Shown one piece after another: positions 4,340 to 14,779 of a stretch of 37,617 bases of DNA. The notes below the pieces were generated by a model. The model saw nothing but the letters and a program-made list of their open reading frames with translations, was not told where the DNA came from and made no database searches. This DNA comes from Thermoproteota archaeon (lineage in GTDB: Archaea > Korarchaeota > JAOZGF01 > JAOZFZ01): positions 1 through 37,617 of the forward strand of contig JAOZFL010000182.1 of the NCBI GenBank assembly GCA_027491455.1, in the 5' to 3' direction. Position 1 is the first letter of the stretch. Every line of letters starts with the position of its first letter. The position numbers and the translations under genes are program-made.

Positions 4340-5450
4340 TTTGAGAGAGACAGATTTAAATGGCCAGAGGAAATAGTAGAGTTAATTTTCTCCCTGAATA
4401 CTTTAAGTAAAGAGTGAATAACGAAGTTAAAGACATAGAAGAAATTTATCAGGGGGAACCTTGGAAAGGTAAACTAGCAAAACACATTTAGATCAACCCC
4501 TCTGGCTACTGGAAGAACCTCAGAAGAGGTGGAAGAGCGTTGAGAATCCTTATCAGATGTGATTGCTATAAGCTAAGAGGTAATGTGTTAAAGTTACCAT
4601 TTGGTTTAAAAATAAAATGAGAGGGGAGAAACAGATGGATAGGGAAGCAAAGACGTTTAGAAACCATCCATGATGAACTATCCAAGTCATGGTATGCCTT
4701 CCAACCTGTATCGGTGAATCCGATGCATCAACCAATTGAGGATTAGAAGACACATGTTGACTTAGGTGTTGCGAATCTAATAAAAGCTTGGATTAAGGGG
4801 GATAGTAAAGCTACAATCTACTCCAACAGAATGTTGTTGGCAGACTGATGGTATTGGACTAAGCAAATAGCTGAACATCAATCCGTGTTAAGGAAGGTAA
4901 ACCACAAACACACATCTAAGAGGTTGAGGAAACTCTACTGCAAACAGAAAAGAAGGCTTAGGCATGCAGTAAACACCCTTGTTTACAGGTTCATCGAAGC
5001 CTGCTGGTTGAAGGAGGTATCAGAAATCATAATGGGTGATTTAAATGGGATTAGAGAAACAACGACAAGGGGAAGAAGACGAATTCAACGGTTCACAACT
5101 TTTAGAGTCATAGATACTTGGTGGAGGGGATAAAGATAACAGCGGAGAACCATGGCGTTCAGGTTAAGTCGAGAAATGAAGCATACACATCAATAACATG
5201 CAGTCTCTGCGGGGAAAGACATAGAAATAGACATAGGTATAGGGGTTTGTACACCTGCAAAACCTTTAACAAGGTGACGAATGCCAATGTTAATGTAGTT
5301 GTAAACATGATTGATAATTCTGAGCCATTCGGTAGGGATAACTGGGTGATGGCAAACCCATCGGTTGTTAAAGCAACCGTGAAACCCTCTAACCCTTTTA
5401 GGGGTAGAGAATATGCCAAAATTAAAAGTTTTCCATCGGTAAAGGTATAA
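4340..5450 (+). pseudogene. Degenerate TnpB (IS200/IS605-type OrfB) pseudogene
   Basis: One frame reads ...EPWKGKLAKHI*INPSGYWKNLRRGGRALRILIRCDCYKLRGNVLKLPFGLKIK*...HVDLGVANLIKAW...*WYWTKQIAEHQSVLRKVNHKH...IMGDLNGIRE, followed by a frameshift near 5118 into VEGIKITAENHGVQVKSRNEAYTSITCSLCGERHRNRHRYRGLYTCKTFNKVTNANVNVVVNM. RuvC-like blocks and a partial zinc ribbon are recognisable. About five in-frame stops. Confidence 0.85.
5362..5409 (+). repeat. Two tandem hairpins at the 3' end of the TnpB relic
   Basis: CGGTTG-TTAAAG-CAACCG (5362-5379) and CTCTA-A-CCC-TTTTA-GGG-G-TAGAG (5387-5409). Confidence 0.6.
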
Positions 5451-5469: not shown

Positions 5470-6996
5470 GTGAAGCTTGACTTCAAGGAAAAATCACCTG
5501 CAGATTTCTTCTCGGAAAACATGGATGTATGCGGCTTCGACAACCCAATAAGAGCTATCTACACAGCTGTAAGGGAACTCCTGGAAAACAGTTTAGATGC
5601 ATGTGAAGCCGCAGATGTACTTCCAAAGGTGAACTTAGAGATAAGGAAAGAAGGAGAAGGGATATACGTGATAAGGATAGAGGACAACGGGCCAGGTATC
5701 CCCCCTGAACATGTACCTGAAAGCTTCGGAAAAATTTTTTATTCATCTAAATACGTTATGAAACAGCAGAGGGGAAGATTCGGGATGGGAGGAACAATGG
5801 CTGTTATGTATGGACAAATAACAACTCAGAGACCAGTCCACATAGTCTCAATGACTGAGAAACAAATCGCAGATTTAAAAATTAAAATAGATATAATAAG
5901 GAACTCACCTATAACTGAACCTGAAAACATATGGAAAGCAGTTAAACCCAATGACACAGGGAAACAAGGAACAACCATAGAGTTAACCCTTGAAGGAAAC
6001 TATCAAAGGGCAAGAGAAAAAATCCTGGAGTACATAAAGCAAACAGCCATGATAGCGCCCTACGCAGAGATTTCCTTCACTGAGCCGGATGGATCTAAAC
6101 ATCTGTATAAGAGAGAAGTAGAGTATCTTCCACCCATCCCGAAAGAAGCAAAGCCTCACCCCCGAGGAGTAAACCTTGAACTGTTCAGGAGACTCATGGC
6201 CAAAGACCCGAGAAGCAAAGTTTCAAATTTCCTGGTTAAGGCTTTCCAGTCAATAGGGAGGAAAACAAGTCTAGAAGTACTTGGCAAAGCCGATGTGAAC
6301 CCGGATAAAAGAGTGAATAAACTTGGATCAGAGGAGATAAGGAGAATTGTTAAATCTCTCAGGAAACACAAAGGGTTCAGGCCGCCAGATGCCTCTTCCC
6401 TTGCCCCAATGGGAGAAGAAATGTTTGAAGCAGGTATAAAAAGGGTTCTGAAAAGTGAATTCGTTAAATGCATCCAAAGACCCCCAAAGGCATACGAGGG
6501 AAACCCCTTCATAGTTGAAGTAGCAATTGCATATGGAGGAGAAATAAAGGTGAAAGAGGGAGAAATAAAACTTTACAGGTTCGCTAACAGAATACCTCTC
6601 CTATACGATGAATGGAACGATGTTTCAACACGTGTCCTAAAAAGGATAAATTGGAAAAGATACGGGGTGAAACCAGGGGACCCCTTCGCTGTTTTCGTCC
6701 ATATATGCTCCACTAATATCCCCTATAAAACCCTTGGAAAGGAATACATAGCCAATAAACCCGAGATAAGAAGGGAAATCTACATGGGAGTGCTTCAAGT
6801 AGCAAGAGAAATGAGGAACTACTTGAACAAATTAGAGAGGAAAAAGAAAACGGAGAAAGCACTTAAAACCTTCATGAAATACGCTGAAACCCTTACATCT
6901 CTCCTTTCAGAGGCAGTTGAAGGAATAAACCAAGATGAAATTAAAGGTAAACTCAGAGAAATAATAGTTGAAAGATTAAAGGTGAATGAACAATGA
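5470..6996 (+). CDS. top6B: DNA topoisomerase VI subunit B (GTG start)
   Basis: GHKL ATPase motifs: RELLENSLDACE, IEDNGPGIP, GRFGMGG, plus TopoVIB transducer sequence. Confidence 0.96.
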   Translation: MKLDFKEKSPADFFSENMDVCGFDNPIRAIYTAVRELLENSLDACEAADVLPKVNLEIRKEGEGIYVIRIEDNGPGIPPEHVPESFGKIFYSSKYVMKQQRGRFGMGGTMAVMYGQITTQRPVHIVSMTEKQIADLKIKIDIIRNSPITEPENIWKAVKPNDTGKQGTTIELTLEGNYQRAREKILEYIKQTAMIAPYAEISFTEPDGSKHLYKREVEYLPPIPKEAKPHPRGVNLELFRRLMAKDPRSKVSNFLVKAFQSIGRKTSLEVLGKADVNPDKRVNKLGSEEIRRIVKSLRKHKGFRPPDASSLAPMGEEMFEAGIKRVLKSEFVKCIQRPPKAYEGNPFIVEVAIAYGGEIKVKEGEIKLYRFANRIPLLYDEWNDVSTRVLKRINWKRYGVKPGDPFAVFVHICSTNIPYKTLGKEYIANKPEIRREIYMGVLQVAREMRNYLNKLERKKKTEKALKTFMKYAETLTSLLSEAVEGINQDEIKGKLREIIVERLKVNEQ

Positions 6997-8090
6997 AAAA
7001 AGAAGAATACATTGTTTTAGCTGGCAAAGTTGAAAAAGAGAAACTTCTCAAGAAAATACTAGGCGAAGTTTTCCATAGAATACTTAAACAAATAAGTCAA
7101 GGGGAAAACCCTTCTCTTGAGATACCGGCTAGGAGAAAAGAATCCATAGTATATGATGAGGAGAGAGACATCATACTCCTCAAGAGAATCCTGATGAAAA
7201 GAGACTTCCTGAACATGAAAAACGTCAGGAAATTCACCCAGACAGTGGCTATAGGTGCAACAATGACAGAACTCCTTAAAAGACAAATACACGCCCAGTT
7301 AAGGGACATATTTTACAACAGAGCCTATCTCTTCGAGACTCAAAGCGAATCAGACTCCATAATAGAGGACATAGCCGCGATGATGGGAGTGTACAGGGAA
7401 AACCTTGGAGTAATAGCAAGTGCAAAAGGAGTTTGCGTAGGAGAAGTGAAAATAAGGGACAGAGGAGACATCATAGACTGTTCAAGGCTAGGCACAGGTG
7501 GATGGTCTATAACCCCCCTGGTAGATGAAGTAACATTCATCGACCACAAAGCAGAGTTCGCCCTTGTAATAGAGAAAGATGCAGCTTTCTTTAGACTTGT
7601 AGAAGATAAATTCTGGAGGAAACATAGATGCATACTTGTAACTGGAAAAGGACAGGCAGACATAGCCACGAGAAGATTTGTTAAAAGGATTAGAGAGGAA
7701 CTAGGCCTACCAGTTTACCTATTAGTTGACAGCGACCCATACGGGTTCTACATAGCAAGCGTCTATAAAAGGGGATCCATAAAAATGTCCTTCGACTCCC
7801 TGAGACTCTCAACAAAAGACGCTAAATTACTGGGTCTCCTACCAAGCGACTTAGACAAATACAAGGTTCCAAGCTATGCAAGACTTAAAATGAATGAAGC
7901 AGACCTCAAAAGACTCATGGAGATAAAGAACTACCCATGGTTCAAAGATGAAAAATACCAAAAAGAATTTGAAATAATGCTTAGGACGAAGCAAAAGGCA
8001 GAGCTTCAAGCCCTCTGCTCAAAAAACCTAACTTTCCTCTCAGACATATACCTACCCAGGAAAATTAAAGGGGAAGACTGGTTAAGCTAG
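6993..8090 (+). CDS. top6A: DNA topoisomerase VI subunit A
   Basis: Spo11/TopVIA: RDIFYNRAY, Toprim ILVTGKGQADIATRRF and LLVDSDPYGFYI. ATGA overlap with top6B. Confidence 0.96.
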   Translation: MKKEEYIVLAGKVEKEKLLKKILGEVFHRILKQISQGENPSLEIPARRKESIVYDEERDIILLKRILMKRDFLNMKNVRKFTQTVAIGATMTELLKRQIHAQLRDIFYNRAYLFETQSESDSIIEDIAAMMGVYRENLGVIASAKGVCVGEVKIRDRGDIIDCSRLGTGGWSITPLVDEVTFIDHKAEFALVIEKDAAFFRLVEDKFWRKHRCILVTGKGQADIATRRFVKRIREELGLPVYLLVDSDPYGFYIASVYKRGSIKMSFDSLRLSTKDAKLLGLLPSDLDKYKVPSYARLKMNEADLKRLMEIKNYPWFKDEKYQKEFEIMLRTKQKAELQALCSKNLTFLSDIYLPRKIKGEDWLS

Positions 8091-9422: not shown

Positions 9423-9764
9423 ATGGAGGGAGCAGTGGAGATCCTAGTTGAAGAGCTAAAAAACGTAAAGGAAGGAAAAAGGGTGCTATTCATAGGTTTA
9501 ATCAAGGAGGTACATGGAAAAATGGTTATTTTCCAAGGAGACCAAGAAGTAGAGGTTTACTTAGAAGGTAAAGTTAAAAAAGTTGAAAAATGGAAACCTG
9601 TACTCATAGTAGGTGTAAAATTGAAGGGATCAGTTGTAAAAGCTGAATTAGCCCTTACACTTGAAAACCTCGACTATAACTTGTATAGAAAAGTTTTAAA
9701 AATGGAGAAAGATGTATTGAGTAGAGTTGAAGGGGGTAATAATGTTCAGTTTCATGGTGGATGA
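9423..9764 (+). CDS. Uncharacterised small protein, predicted OB-fold-like, first gene of the PCNA-primase operon
   Basis: 113-aa ORF with alternating beta pattern (GKRVLFIGLIKEVHGKMVIFQGDQEVEVYLEGKVKKVEKWKPVLIVGVKLKGSVVKAELALTLENLDYNLYRKVL). Stop overlaps the PCNA start. Confidence 0.6.
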   Translation: MEGAVEILVEELKNVKEGKRVLFIGLIKEVHGKMVIFQGDQEVEVYLEGKVKKVEKWKPVLIVGVKLKGSVVKAELALTLENLDYNLYRKVLKMEKDVLSRVEGGNNVQFHGG

Positions 9765-10491
9765 TGTAAATCTCCTGAAAAGGGTGATCGACAGTTTACA
9801 CATCTTGGTGGACGAGGTATCCCTGAAAATCACAGATGAAAGTGTTTCCACAAGGTGCATGGATCTAAGCAAAGTAGCCCTTGTCGAGCTCTATATGCCC
9901 AGAGAGATGTTCGTTAAATATGAATGCGACAAAGAACACATTGTAGGCTTAAACATCCTTGATTTGAAGAGCAGAGTTAAAAGAGCAAGTGCAAACGATG
10001 AATTAACAATTTCCTACAACGATGAATTAAAAATGATGGAAATAATTATTCAAGGCGCATCGAAAAGGATCTTCAGGTTCAGAACACTTACAACTGTTGA
10101 AGGATACCTGGAAAGGGTACCTAAGGTCCAGTTCACAGCTAAAGCCAAGCTTCTCTCCGAAACATTTACGAACATGGTGCTAGACTCAGAAATAGTTTCA
10201 GAGGAGTTGATTTTGAAGGCCACCGAGAAAAAATTCATAGCTGAGGCAAAGGGAGAATCCGGTGAAACAATAGTGGAGCTTGAAAAGGAATCTGAAGGTT
10301 TACTTGAATTAAATGTACAGGAAGAAGCAACTTCAAGATACAAAATAGACATGTTAAAGAACATGGTTAAGGGAGCCAAGATATCTGAAACAGTGGATGT
10401 ATACATATCCAATAACCTACCCTTGAAAATAGAGTACGTTATCCCTGGAGGAGGAAAACTAGCCTATTACCTAGCCCCGATCACAGCTTAA
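9742..10491 (+). CDS. pcn: DNA polymerase sliding clamp (PCNA)
   Basis: MFSFMVDDVNLLKRVIDSLHILVDEVSLKITDESVSTRCMDLSKVALVELYMP...; C-terminal LPLKIEYVIPGGGKLAYYLAPI. Start moved to the ATG at 9742, preceded by a purine-rich GAAGGGGG. Confidence 0.95.
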   Translation: MFSFMVDDVNLLKRVIDSLHILVDEVSLKITDESVSTRCMDLSKVALVELYMPREMFVKYECDKEHIVGLNILDLKSRVKRASANDELTISYNDELKMMEIIIQGASKRIFRFRTLTTVEGYLERVPKVQFTAKAKLLSETFTNMVLDSEIVSEELILKATEKKFIAEAKGESGETIVELEKESEGLLELNVQEEATSRYKIDMLKNMVKGAKISETVDVYISNNLPLKIEYVIPGGGKLAYYLAPITA

Positions 10492-10516: not shown

Positions 10517-11539
10517 GTGACAACTAGGTACCTAGCTAAATACCCATTCAGCCGAGAAGCAAAGGTTTTCCTCCAAGAGTACGGTGGAAACCTAGATCAA
10601 ATAATAAAGGAAAACCCAAACCTCATACAAACAGTGAAAGAAAGAGTTTCTTCAGCTCTCATAGGGAAAACCTTTGAAAACCAAGGGAAAACATTTGCTG
10701 ATTTCCTTTCCTACCCTTTAGCCCTTGCAGTCGTCAATTTCCTTAACGACCCTCTTTTAAAGGCTAAATTCGCTGTTTCAGAGTCCAAGAAACTTTACAT
10801 GACTCTTTTATCAGAGGTAAATGAAGAAAACATCGTAAAACTTGCAAGGGAAACATTTAACATGGACTTAATCAGAAGGGAAACTGTTGGGGGCAAAGGG
10901 CAGACAAGCGGTGTAACCTACTATCTCACGGTGGAGGACTACTTAAAATACAGTAAAAGGTTTAAGGAGCCTACTTGGAGGCTTATTAACAGGTACCTGA
11001 GAAAGGGGTTCGTAGAGGTTTACAGAAGAGAACTAATAAGGATCATCTGCGAAGCCTTAAAAGAGAAAATAATGGATAAAAAGATTAAAGTTAACCTAAA
11101 AGGAGAGCTTAGAGAAGCAGCTTTAGACCTCAAGAAGGAACTTGAAAGATTCAGGGAAAGTAAGGCTACATGGATGAAAGGCAGAAAAGGTGCAGAGGGA
11201 AAACCTCCATGCATAGAAGACTTAATGAACAAAATAAAAAGAAACTACGACCTTTCCCATGTGGAAAGACTTGTAGTGGCCACCTACCTTTTAAACACAG
11301 GTTACAGCGTTGAGGAAACAATAACGGTTTTCTCCTCCCTTCCAGACTTCGATGAAGAGAAAACAAGGTACCAAGTTGAACATTTAGGGGGGCTAAGAGG
11401 ATCTAAAAAGAAGTACTCTGCACCAAACTGTAAAACCATGCAAACATATGGACTGTGTAAAAGGAATGAAACATGTGAAGGGGTAAACCACCCCCTTCAA
11501 TACAGATATAGAAAAAGAAAAGAGAAAAAAAGCAGATGA
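10517..11539 (+). CDS. priL: DNA primase large subunit PriL
   Basis: C-terminal Fe-S domain Cys pattern PPCIEDL ... APNCKTMQTYGLCKRNETCEGVNHPLQYR. Confidence 0.92.
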   Translation: MTTRYLAKYPFSREAKVFLQEYGGNLDQIIKENPNLIQTVKERVSSALIGKTFENQGKTFADFLSYPLALAVVNFLNDPLLKAKFAVSESKKLYMTLLSEVNEENIVKLARETFNMDLIRRETVGGKGQTSGVTYYLTVEDYLKYSKRFKEPTWRLINRYLRKGFVEVYRRELIRIICEALKEKIMDKKIKVNLKGELREAALDLKKELERFRESKATWMKGRKGAEGKPPCIEDLMNKIKRNYDLSHVERLVVATYLLNTGYSVEETITVFSSLPDFDEEKTRYQVEHLGGLRGSKKKYSAPNCKTMQTYGLCKRNETCEGVNHPLQYRYRKRKEKKSR

Positions 11540-12801
11540 AAGAAAGGGAAACCTTATTTGCAAAGAAAATTTTCTCCAAATATTATAGACAAAGGAAAAA
11601 TGAAATAAAACACCCTGAAAGAGTTAACATGCGGGAATTCGGCTTCACCTTCTTTGGAAGAGAGGGAATGCATAGACACGTGGCTTTCAGCTCCCTAGAA
11701 GAGTTTAGAGGTTTCCTAGAGATGAACTCCCCGAGCAACTCAATGTATTCATCAGCCTACTTTGAAAACCCTGAAAACAGAGAAATGAACAGGAAAAAGT
11801 GGCTAAGTGCAGATCTAATATTCGACATAGATGCTGATCACCTTCCAGGAGTGAAAGAAGACCGGACAACAACTTGGAGCTGTAGAAAATGTGGAGAAAG
11901 AGGAATAGGGGAGAAGATTAAATGTCCAAGCTGTGAATCAATTGAAATCGACAAGGTGAAATGGCCGAATAAGGAGTCCCTTAGAAATGCGAGAAAGGTC
12001 GCTGAAAAACTTATCTTCGATTTCCTGATCGAGGACTTCGGCGTGGAGGAAGAGGAAATACTTATCAAGTTCTCTGGTCAAAGAGGATACCATATACATG
12101 TCCACAAGGAAAAAACACTTAAATTAACACAGGAAGAAAGAAGAGAAATCATAAATTATCTTAAAGGCCAAGGTTGGAGCTACGAAAAATGGTTCGAGAA
12201 AAGAGAAGGGAAAATAATTGGTCCAGGTATCTATGATGCTGGTTGGAGAGGCAGAGTAGCTAAGGGATTTATAAGACTCCTCATACATGCCAAGGAAAAA
12301 CTGGGTAAGGAACTAAATTTCCTGAGCCCCCGAAAAATAGAGGAACTTAAAAAGAAAAGAAAAGAAATACTGAGAAACCTTTCAAGGGAAACAGGTATTT
12401 GGTCTAACAGAGAAATAAACCTTTCAAAAACTCAAATAATGAAAATTGTTCAACACATTATAGAGGAAAATACATGTCAAATAGATGAAGCTGTTACCCT
12501 CGACATAAAGAGACTCATAAGAACCCCTAACACACTCCACGGCAAAACAGGTTTCATAGCTAAAACAATTGAACTGGAAAATCTTCGAAAATTTGAACCT
12601 TTGAACAAAGCAATCCTTAACTACGACTTCAACGTAAAAATAAAAACAAGGGTCATCCCTAAGATGGAAATAGGAAAAGAATCTTTCGGTCCATTTGAAA
12701 ACGAAGAAGTTGAAGTGCCAGTCTACCTGGCTTTGCTGGCTGTTTTAAAGGGAGGAGCCGATTTAATTGGTGACCATAGAAACCCTTTTAAAGATCCTTA
12801 G
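11536..12801 (+). CDS. priS: DNA primase small (catalytic) subunit PriS
   Basis: Catalytic DLIFDIDADHLPG, zinc motif CRKCGERGIGEKIKCPSC, SGQRGYHIHVHKE, IKRLIRTPNTLHGKTGF. Confidence 0.96.
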   Translation: MKERETLFAKKIFSKYYRQRKNEIKHPERVNMREFGFTFFGREGMHRHVAFSSLEEFRGFLEMNSPSNSMYSSAYFENPENREMNRKKWLSADLIFDIDADHLPGVKEDRTTTWSCRKCGERGIGEKIKCPSCESIEIDKVKWPNKESLRNARKVAEKLIFDFLIEDFGVEEEEILIKFSGQRGYHIHVHKEKTLKLTQEERREIINYLKGQGWSYEKWFEKREGKIIGPGIYDAGWRGRVAKGFIRLLIHAKEKLGKELNFLSPRKIEELKKKRKEILRNLSRETGIWSNREINLSKTQIMKIVQHIIEENTCQIDEAVTLDIKRLIRTPNTLHGKTGFIAKTIELENLRKFEPLNKAILNYDFNVKIKTRVIPKMEIGKESFGPFENEEVEVPVYLALLAVLKGGADLIGDHRNPFKDP

Positions 12802-13282
12802 AAGAGAAGCCTACACAGTGGAACCCCAGAAAATAGAGGGAAACATATACAAGGAAATAAGGGGGAAACTGAGGGAAATAAAGGATAGAATAATCTACAC
12901 AGAAAATAAAACAGAAAGAAAGCTTCTTAAAAGAAAAGCAGAAATTTTAAGGGAAATAGCCTGTGAACTCCTCATAATAAGAACCCAGAAAACCCTGTTA
13001 AAAAAGGGGAAAGGGGAAACACTGGAAGAAGAGAGAAAACTGATTCAAATAATTGAAAAAATGCTTTTCGAGGAAAAAAAACCAGTAAACCAGCTCCTAA
13101 TGGATCTTAAACCTGGAAAAATACTTGTAAGAGTTCTAGATGAAATCCCGCAATTCGTTGCACCAGAAGATTTAAAAATCTATGGTCCAATGAAAAAATG
13201 GGATCTCTTATTCACAGACAGAAAAAACATTATTCCATTGATTAAAGGCAAAAAAATAGAGTTAATAGGGGAGAAAAGATGA
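12767..13282 (+). CDS. GINS complex subunit (Gins15/51 type)
   Basis: N-terminal helical domain plus C-terminal ILVRVLDEIPQFVAPEDLKIYGPMKKWDLLFTDRKNIIPLIKGKKIELI (GINS B-domain). TTG 12767 or GTG 12770 start. Confidence 0.85.
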   Translation: MVTIETLLKILRREAYTVEPQKIEGNIYKEIRGKLREIKDRIIYTENKTERKLLKRKAEILREIACELLIIRTQKTLLKKGKGETLEEERKLIQIIEKMLFEEKKPVNQLLMDLKPGKILVRVLDEIPQFVAPEDLKIYGPMKKWDLLFTDRKNIIPLIKGKKIELIGEKR

Positions 13283-13554
13283 AGATGCCGAAGGAATTAA
13301 AGACATACTGTCCAAGGTGCAAAACTCACACAGAACACACAGTGAAGATTTTCAAGAAGGGAAAAAGCAGAATAACTTCTTGGGGGGAGAGACAGCATAA
13401 AAAATTGCTAAAAGGTTACGGTGGAAGCCCAAGAGGAAAACAAAGAACAGTTAAAACCACAAAGAAACAGTCAATGATGCTTAAATGCAAGAAATGCAGC
13501 TACACAGTTGTAAGAAAGGGGGTTAGACTTAAAAAAGCGGAAATAGCAAGGTGA
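13279..13554 (+). CDS. rpl44e: Ribosomal protein L44e (eL42)
   Basis: MKMPKELKTYCPRCKTHTEHTV...GGSPRGKQRTVKTTKKQSMMLKCKKCSY. Confidence 0.95.
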   Translation: MKMPKELKTYCPRCKTHTEHTVKIFKKGKSRITSWGERQHKKLLKGYGGSPRGKQRTVKTTKKQSMMLKCKKCSYTVVRKGVRLKKAEIAR

Positions 13555-13558
13555 TACC

Positions 13559-13747
13559 ATGAAGAAACCTGTTCCCTCACCTAAAAGCATGTTCTTAAAG
13601 GTTAAATGCCCAAAATGCGGAGCTGAACAGGTTATCTACAGCCATTCATCGATGAAAGTAAACTGCAAAGTCTGCGGAGAAACAATTGTAAAGCCTACAG
13701 GAGGAAAAGCTGAGATAATAGCTAAGAAAATAAAGAGGCTGGGTTGA
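13559..13747 (+). CDS. rps27e: Ribosomal protein S27e (eS27)
   Basis: FLKVKCPKCGAEQVIYSHSSMKVNCKVCGETIVKPTGGKAEI. Confidence 0.95.
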   Translation: MKKPVPSPKSMFLKVKCPKCGAEQVIYSHSSMKVNCKVCGETIVKPTGGKAEIIAKKIKRLG

Positions 13748-14559
13748 GGCTTAAAATGCTTAAAAAAGGCTTTCCAAGGAGAGGAGAACTAGTCATAGGA
13801 ACTGTTACGAAAATAGATAATTTCGGAGCCTACATAAATCTTTCAGACTACGGGAAGGAAGGCTTCATCCCAAGAGTTGAAGTAGCAAGTGTATGGGTAA
13901 AGGACATCAAACACTTTATAAAGGAAAACCAAAGGGTTGTGGCAAAGGTTATAAGGGTGAATCCGAGCAGAGGACTTATAGATTTATCTTTAAAAGCTGT
14001 AAAGGAAAGAGAAGCTATAAAAACACTTCAAGAATGGAAAAGGAGAAGAAAAGGAATCTATCTACTCAAAGAAGTAGCTAAAAGAACAAATCAGCCAATA
14101 GAGGAAATATATATCGAAACAGGTAAACAACTGGAGCAAAACTTTGGGGACATACTTGCAGCCTTCGAAAGCATCGTTTATGAAGGACCTCAAACCATTA
14201 AGCAATTAAAAATACCAGGGAAAATGAAGGAAGCCATAATAGAGGTAGCAAATAAACACGTCGAAATACCAGAAGTAACCCTGTCTAGATATGTTAAAAT
14301 TATAAGTTACGAGTCAAACGGGGTTGAAATAATAAAAAACGCCCTTATAAAAGCTAAAATGGAAAACGAAGAAGAGGGATATAAAACAGAGATAACAAAT
14401 GTGGGCTCCCCTCTCTACAAGATAAAGGTAACCGCAAACGACTTTAAAAAAGCTGAAAACAAACTGAGAGAAATGATTGAAACACTTAGAAAAGAGATAA
14501 AGGGGAAAAACAATATTTTAGAGGTAACTGAAAGAAAAGAGGCAAAAAAAGGTGCATAA
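13744..14559 (+). CDS. Translation initiation factor aIF2 subunit alpha
   Basis: N-terminal S1 domain FPRRGELVIGTVTKIDNFGAYINLSDYGKEGFIPRVEVASVWVKDIKHFIKENQRVVAKVIRVNPSRGLIDLSLK, plus eIF2-alpha helical/C-terminal domains. Confidence 0.96.
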   Translation: MRLKMLKKGFPRRGELVIGTVTKIDNFGAYINLSDYGKEGFIPRVEVASVWVKDIKHFIKENQRVVAKVIRVNPSRGLIDLSLKAVKEREAIKTLQEWKRRRKGIYLLKEVAKRTNQPIEEIYIETGKQLEQNFGDILAAFESIVYEGPQTIKQLKIPGKMKEAIIEVANKHVEIPEVTLSRYVKIISYESNGVEIIKNALIKAKMENEEEGYKTEITNVGSPLYKIKVTANDFKKAENKLREMIETLRKEIKGKNNILEVTERKEAKKGA

Positions 14560-14779
14560 CCTCCTTAAAAAATGTCCAAAATGCAAAAACTACTACTTAG
14601 AAGAGGAAACATGTCCAAAATGCAAAGAAAGAACCATTAATCCAAACCCGCCAAGGTTTAAACCTGAAACAATAGAGAAGACTGTAAAGGGGATAATGAA
14701 CAAAGCAGATGAAGAAACCCTGGAAAAAATAATAAACACCCTTTTTAAAGAGGAAACTGGAACTAAAAAAAATAAATAG
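14552..14779 (+). CDS. nop10: Nop10-like H/ACA RNP protein with an atypical C-terminus
   Basis: LLKKCPKCKNYYLEEETCPKCKERTINPNPPRFKPE matches the Nop10 core. The remaining ~40 aa (TIEKTVKGIMNKADEETLEKIINTLFKEETGTKKNK) is not typical. Confidence 0.82.
   Translation: MHNLLKKCPKCKNYYLEEETCPKCKERTINPNPPRFKPETIEKTVKGIMNKADEETLEKIINTLFKEETGTKKNK

Follow-up and report, generated by a model that had tools for sequence, protein, structure and literature searches.

Directly in front of the sliding-clamp and primase genes of an archaeon of the Thermoproteota (GTDB lineage Korarchaeota) lies a short open reading frame (ORF), and its position raises the question of which replication protein it encodes. 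The stretch of DNA analyzed here, hereinafter the window, comprised 37,617 nucleotides of contig JAOZFL010000182.1. The initial annotation had described the product as an OB-like protein that could not be assigned to a named family, with a possible ssDNA-binding or clamp/primase accessory role.

Gene organization in the window

The ORF (9423..9764, +) starts with ATG, encodes 113 aa and ends with a TGA stop codon at 9762-9764. Its product was recognized as an Rpa3 (RPA14)-like single-OB protein from the ORF, a sub-threshold Pfam match, a profile match, and AF2/Foldseek results. The PCNA gene (9742..10491, +) was identified by PF00705 (PCNA_N, 3.7e-18) and PF02747 (PCNA_C, 1.5e-13). Its ATG is at 9742, and a relative of this PCNA in genome G001 opens with the identical residues MFSFM, which supports the start codon and hence the 23-nt overlap of the two genes (9742..9764, +) proposed initially. 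The overlap suggests that the Rpa3-like gene and PCNA may be translationally coupled; at most homologous loci the two are separated by 0-50 nt or shortly overlapping. The ORF was not a chance frame, as homologs adjoin PCNA in the same family, the same phylum, and other archaea.

Further downstream on the same strand were the genes for the large and small subunits of DNA primase, PriL (DNA_primase_lrg; 10517..11539, +; PF04104, 8.4e-29) and PriS (DNA_primase_S; 11536..12801, +; PF01896, 2.4e-18). A probable Gins51-like GINS subunit (12767..13282, +) was assigned from its position and a sub-threshold match to Gins51_C (E = 0.0013); its listed start overlaps PriS and is possibly too early. Within the PCNA-PriL-PriS-GINS operon of the initial annotation, PCNA and both primase subunits were thus confirmed by Pfam, whereas GINS reached a sub-threshold score. 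Genes for L44e, S27e, aIF2-alpha, and Nop10, detected by Pfam matches, occupied 13279..14779 (+) and correspond to the known LSIN block (PMC2643942). Genes for a proteasome subunit and a DUF359 protein (Pfam) lie upstream of the ORF on the opposite strand, so that the rightward cluster begins with the ORF, as had been claimed.

The downstream genes are those of the PPsG-LSIN replication-translation supercluster (PCNA, PriS, Gins15, L44E, S27E, aIF2-alpha, and Nop10), described together with a PCNA-TFS-NudF linkage by Berthon et al., 2008 (PMC2643942). Unlike the window locus, the accessible text of that study mentions no small OB gene at PCNA, and RPA14 appears there solely as part of the Thermococcales RPA cluster.

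Topoisomerase VI subunits B and A are also encoded near the replication cluster, by adjacent and overlapping genes (5470-8090). Directly upstream of subunit B is a broken IS200/IS605-type TnpB gene (4885-5450), consisting of two overlapping ORFs matching OrfB_IS605 and the TNB zinc-ribbon domain.

Predicted structure

The protein was confidently modeled by AF2 (pLDDT 87.9) as an OB barrel followed by a C-terminal helix. By DSSP, the five strands of the barrel comprised residues 20-30, 34-38, 41-47, 59-66, and 71-79 (codons for residues 20-79 at 9480..9659, +), and the long helix comprised residues 85-105 (9675..9737, +). The segment ALTLENLDYNLYRKVLKMEKDVL takes in the C-terminal helix and the end of the strand before it. 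By analogy with RPA of Pyrococcus abyssi, this helix may be the counterpart of the RPA trimerization helix (PMC10122647).

The best Foldseek match in the PDB was Ten1 of Schizosaccharomyces pombe (3k0x, E = 2.6e-8). RPA14 of P. abyssi (3e-6, TM about 0.7, about 21-22% identity over the structural match), human RPA14 (about 1.7e-5), and Tetrahymena p19/Teb3 were also matched. The top ~20 matches were almost entirely Ten1, RPA14, or Teb3/p19, ahead of other OB families, and the structural search placed Ten1, a eukaryotic telomere protein, slightly above RPA14. The OB fold with an RPA14-type layout, which had been proposed from the letters of the sequence, was therefore recovered in the model.

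Sequence relationship to Rpa3/RPA14

With the Pfam family of eukaryotic RPA14/RPA3, Rep_fac-A_3 (PF08661), the protein shares the fold, but the sequence match was weak and missed the cut-off (E = 0.01, 16.6 bits; gathering score 23.5). A Thermococcales RPA14 itself gave no PF08661 match at E ≤ 0.1, so this score does not discriminate archaeal Rpa3. The NCBIfam search yielded chance-level matches only, and no relative was found in a single-sequence search of genome contigs with the protein. Using tblastn, six genomes were matched including its own, and the hits in the other five were all beside PCNA.

A profile (A1) was built from the protein and five homologs, with no Thermococcales sequence included. 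Against the PDB, it matched RPA14 of P. abyssi at E = 4.6e-15, far above any other chain; yeast RPA2 (0.003) and Ten1 (0.038) came next, and P. abyssi RPA32 was not among the matches listed. Ten1 is accordingly the best match in fold and a weak one in sequence. A held-out profile made from other phyla only, with the rows of the window, its phylum, and Thermococcales all excluded, ranked the window ORF first among the tested ORFs of its genome (E = 3e-9). A profile containing Thermococcales rows was set aside as independent evidence, since the target family is itself part of it.

In the reverse direction, the genome-wide best match of a Thermococcales-only RPA14 profile was the PCNA-adjacent ORF in many other archaea, at E-values down to about 1e-18, and about 1e-25 was reached on fetched ORFs. 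The window copy was missed by this profile in the genome-wide search; with filters off and a small ORF set, it ranked first at E = 0.024. Its link to Thermococcales RPA14 therefore runs via intermediates. The protein is a divergent member, tied to the family through the G001 relative and gene position, and it lacks the DDGTG motif found in most members. Weak RMI2 matches were also obtained with family members.

In a phylogenetic tree, Rpa2 OB domains clustered together (SH-aLRT 98) and were separated from the rows of PCNA-adjacent proteins and of Thermococcales RPA14, with few alignment columns and the window row not firmly placed. In place of the initial statement that no named family could be given, the profile matches and the tree assign the protein to the Rpa3 (RPA14) family. 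It resembles Rpa3 of P. abyssi and other Thermococcales (PDB 8aaj, 8aas, 8c5y) in its single OB fold, C-terminal helix, and length (about 112-122 aa), and differs in the loss of DDGTG and in gene position: the Thermococcales gene belongs to an RPA41-RPA14-RPA32 operon, and the window gene to a PCNA-primase cluster.

Distribution and gene neighborhood

Homologs were found in 182 of the 394 archaeal genomes searched, and about 29 genomes of the organism's own small phylum were encountered. A broader profile recovered further PCNA-adjacent copies in genomes initially scored negative, so the absences are partly due to sensitivity limits.

Sixty homologous loci were inspected, not counting the window's own. 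The gene was co-directional with and directly upstream of PCNA in 50 (49 identified by script, and L082 on inspection), divergent from a neighboring PCNA in two, and elsewhere in six; in the remaining two, from Thermococcales, it lay between RPA41 and RPA32. Many loci also had PriL/PriS nearby, and the PCNA neighborhood persists over dozens of families. Neither a non-OB fold nor a failure of the homologs to associate with replication genes, the outcomes named in the initial annotation as contrary to its reading, was found, since the model contained an OB barrel and the homologs were associated with replication genes.

The PCNA alignment was too variable for searching, and transcription factor S (TFS) was therefore used as a locus anchor. 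The order TFS-OB-PCNA was found at named loci of Hadesarchaea, Methanofastidiosia, Nanohalarchaeota, and Aenigmarchaeota. TFS-PCNA with no OB gene between was found in Thermococcus, where RPA14 is in the RPA operon, and at named loci of many Thermoproteota and several Thermoplasmata.

Several individual arrangements were also recorded. In several genomes of the same phylum (L079, L081-L085), the gene for the PolD large subunit is directly in front, giving DP2-Rpa3-PCNA-PriL-PriS. In family f26 (G285:C1:1503934-1504614 and similar), an OB ORF of 104-116 aa lies away from PCNA and is immediately followed by another small OB ORF; the pair may represent an Rpa3 that has been relocated, together with a short partner. 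At L090:2610-4306, the Rpa3-like gene lies upstream of a gene for a protein that by eye looks NreA-like and has a terminal PIP-like sequence, which takes the place of PCNA.

Co-occurrence with Rpa2 and RPA subunits of the genome

Weak matches to the Rpa2 profile occurred in 384 of the 394 genomes, some of them being cross-matches to other OB proteins. The cut-off was therefore tightened to E < 1e-20, a value chosen after the scores were seen to be bimodal. On this basis, and with lists transcribed by hand, the OB gene and Rpa2 were both present in 169 genomes, OB alone in 13, Rpa2 alone in 62, and neither in 150. The corresponding family counts were 56, 5, 24, and 51 (Fisher p = 3e-13 at the family level, the families being not fully independent): among the 61 families that have the OB gene, 56 had a strong Rpa2 match, versus 24 of the 75 that lack it, and five families had the OB gene without such a match. 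With the broader profile, some of the 24 families scored as Rpa2 alone do have the OB gene at PCNA, and the link to Rpa2 would then be stronger. The OB gene does not track the near-universal PCNA: where a strong Rpa2 match is missing, the OB gene is absent from most families, although PCNA is nearly always present.

The genome itself encodes an Rpa2-like protein of 136 aa on a separate contig (L240:2849-3259), in a gene overlapping aIF2-beta; its AF2 model (pLDDT 93) had P. abyssi Rpa2 as the top PDB match (TM 0.88). In P. abyssi, the C-terminal winged helix of Rpa2 binds primase and PolD; the Rpa2-like protein here is without this domain. An Rpa1-like protein of 532 aa is encoded on another contig (L241:3078-4676), and no zinc finger was evident in it. 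The RPA of this organism may therefore be unusual. An SSB-like single-OB protein is encoded separately (L243:1613-1903; PF21473, 5e-12), and the genome thus has both SSB-like and RPA-like proteins.

Discussion

The fold, the family relationship, the conserved position beside PCNA, the co-occurrence with Rpa2, and the Rpa1- and Rpa2-like genes carried by the same genome argue that the ORF very probably encodes a divergent archaeal Rpa3 (RPA14), the smallest subunit of heterotrimeric RPA. It would be a structural third subunit, probably not an ssDNA binder itself and probably co-expressed with the clamp and primase. Rpa3 of P. abyssi is described as structural, making no contact with ssDNA and binding none alone; it joins the helix bundle of the trimerization core and contacts the N-termini of neighboring Rpa1 (PMC10122647). 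By homology, the OB barrel and C-terminal helix of the window protein would pack against the Rpa2 (RPA32-like) and Rpa1 (RPA41-like) proteins encoded elsewhere in the genome, and would thereby form a three-helix trimerization core that holds RPA on ssDNA, the Rpa3-like protein itself contributing no ssDNA binding. The direct ssDNA-binding role suggested in the initial annotation is thus probably wrong, given these properties of the characterized P. abyssi protein; the clamp/primase accessory role also named there is hypothetical. As its gene heads the PCNA-PriL-PriS-GINS cluster and runs into PCNA, the protein is probably made together with the clamp and primase.

The persistence of the PCNA neighborhood, often with PriL/PriS, across dozens of families could also be expected of an accessory factor of RPA3/Ten1 descent working outside RPA, either partnering PCNA or recruiting primase in the manner of CST. 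The top fold match of the protein, Ten1, acts in the CST complex with Pol alpha-primase, and the window copy is divergent. Such an accessory factor is unlikely, however, because the OB gene tracks Rpa2 rather than PCNA, Thermococcales hold the same family within the RPA operon, and no PIP-like motif was visible by eye at the C-terminus of the protein.

A small single OB fold adjoining replication genes might equally suggest a stand-alone, SSB-like ssDNA-binding protein, but the fold matches were RPA3/Ten1 and not SSB, P. abyssi Rpa3 is reported to bind no ssDNA (PMC10122647), and the protein had no Pfam match to PF21473, the SSB-like protein of the genome being a separate one; we regard this as very improbable. 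Assignment to Rpa2 (RPA32) or to an RMI2/Stn1-type OB protein instead of Rpa3 seems scarcely credible: RMI2 was weakly matched by the family and Rpa2 OB domains are the nearest paralogs, but the genome already encodes a separate Rpa2, the tree splits Rpa2 from the Rpa3 rows, and the Thermococcales-free profile retrieved RPA14 and not P. abyssi RPA32.

For the tie between the Rpa3 gene and PCNA/primase, co-expression at the fork would be the simplest reason, and a physical link the more novel one. A rather unlikely extension of the Rpa3 assignment is that the Rpa3-PCNA pair is old in archaea and exists because of a second role of Rpa3, connecting ssDNA coated by RPA with the clamp and primase, in the manner of Ten1 within CST; heterotrimeric RPA with such a subunit would then be ancestral in archaea.

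Heterotrimeric RPA has been characterized in Thermococcales and modeled for Asgard archaea (PMC10122647), and the case for Rpa1-Rpa2 heterodimers in other archaea was made in 2021 (PMC8329085). Rpa3 at PCNA is unmentioned in the accessible text of the 2008 context study and of archaeal RPA studies from 2021, 2023, and 2024; it may have been noticed in subscription journals or arCOG. Should the gene preceding PCNA be Rpa3, the RPA of many archaeal lineages would be complete with three subunits; the smallest of the three genes would have escaped notice because it lies apart from its two partners and its scores fall short of family thresholds. Lineages credited with at most two RPA subunits would thus gain a third. 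It would provide a named candidate for co-purification, and would raise the question of why a core subunit of RPA is tied to the clamp and primase.
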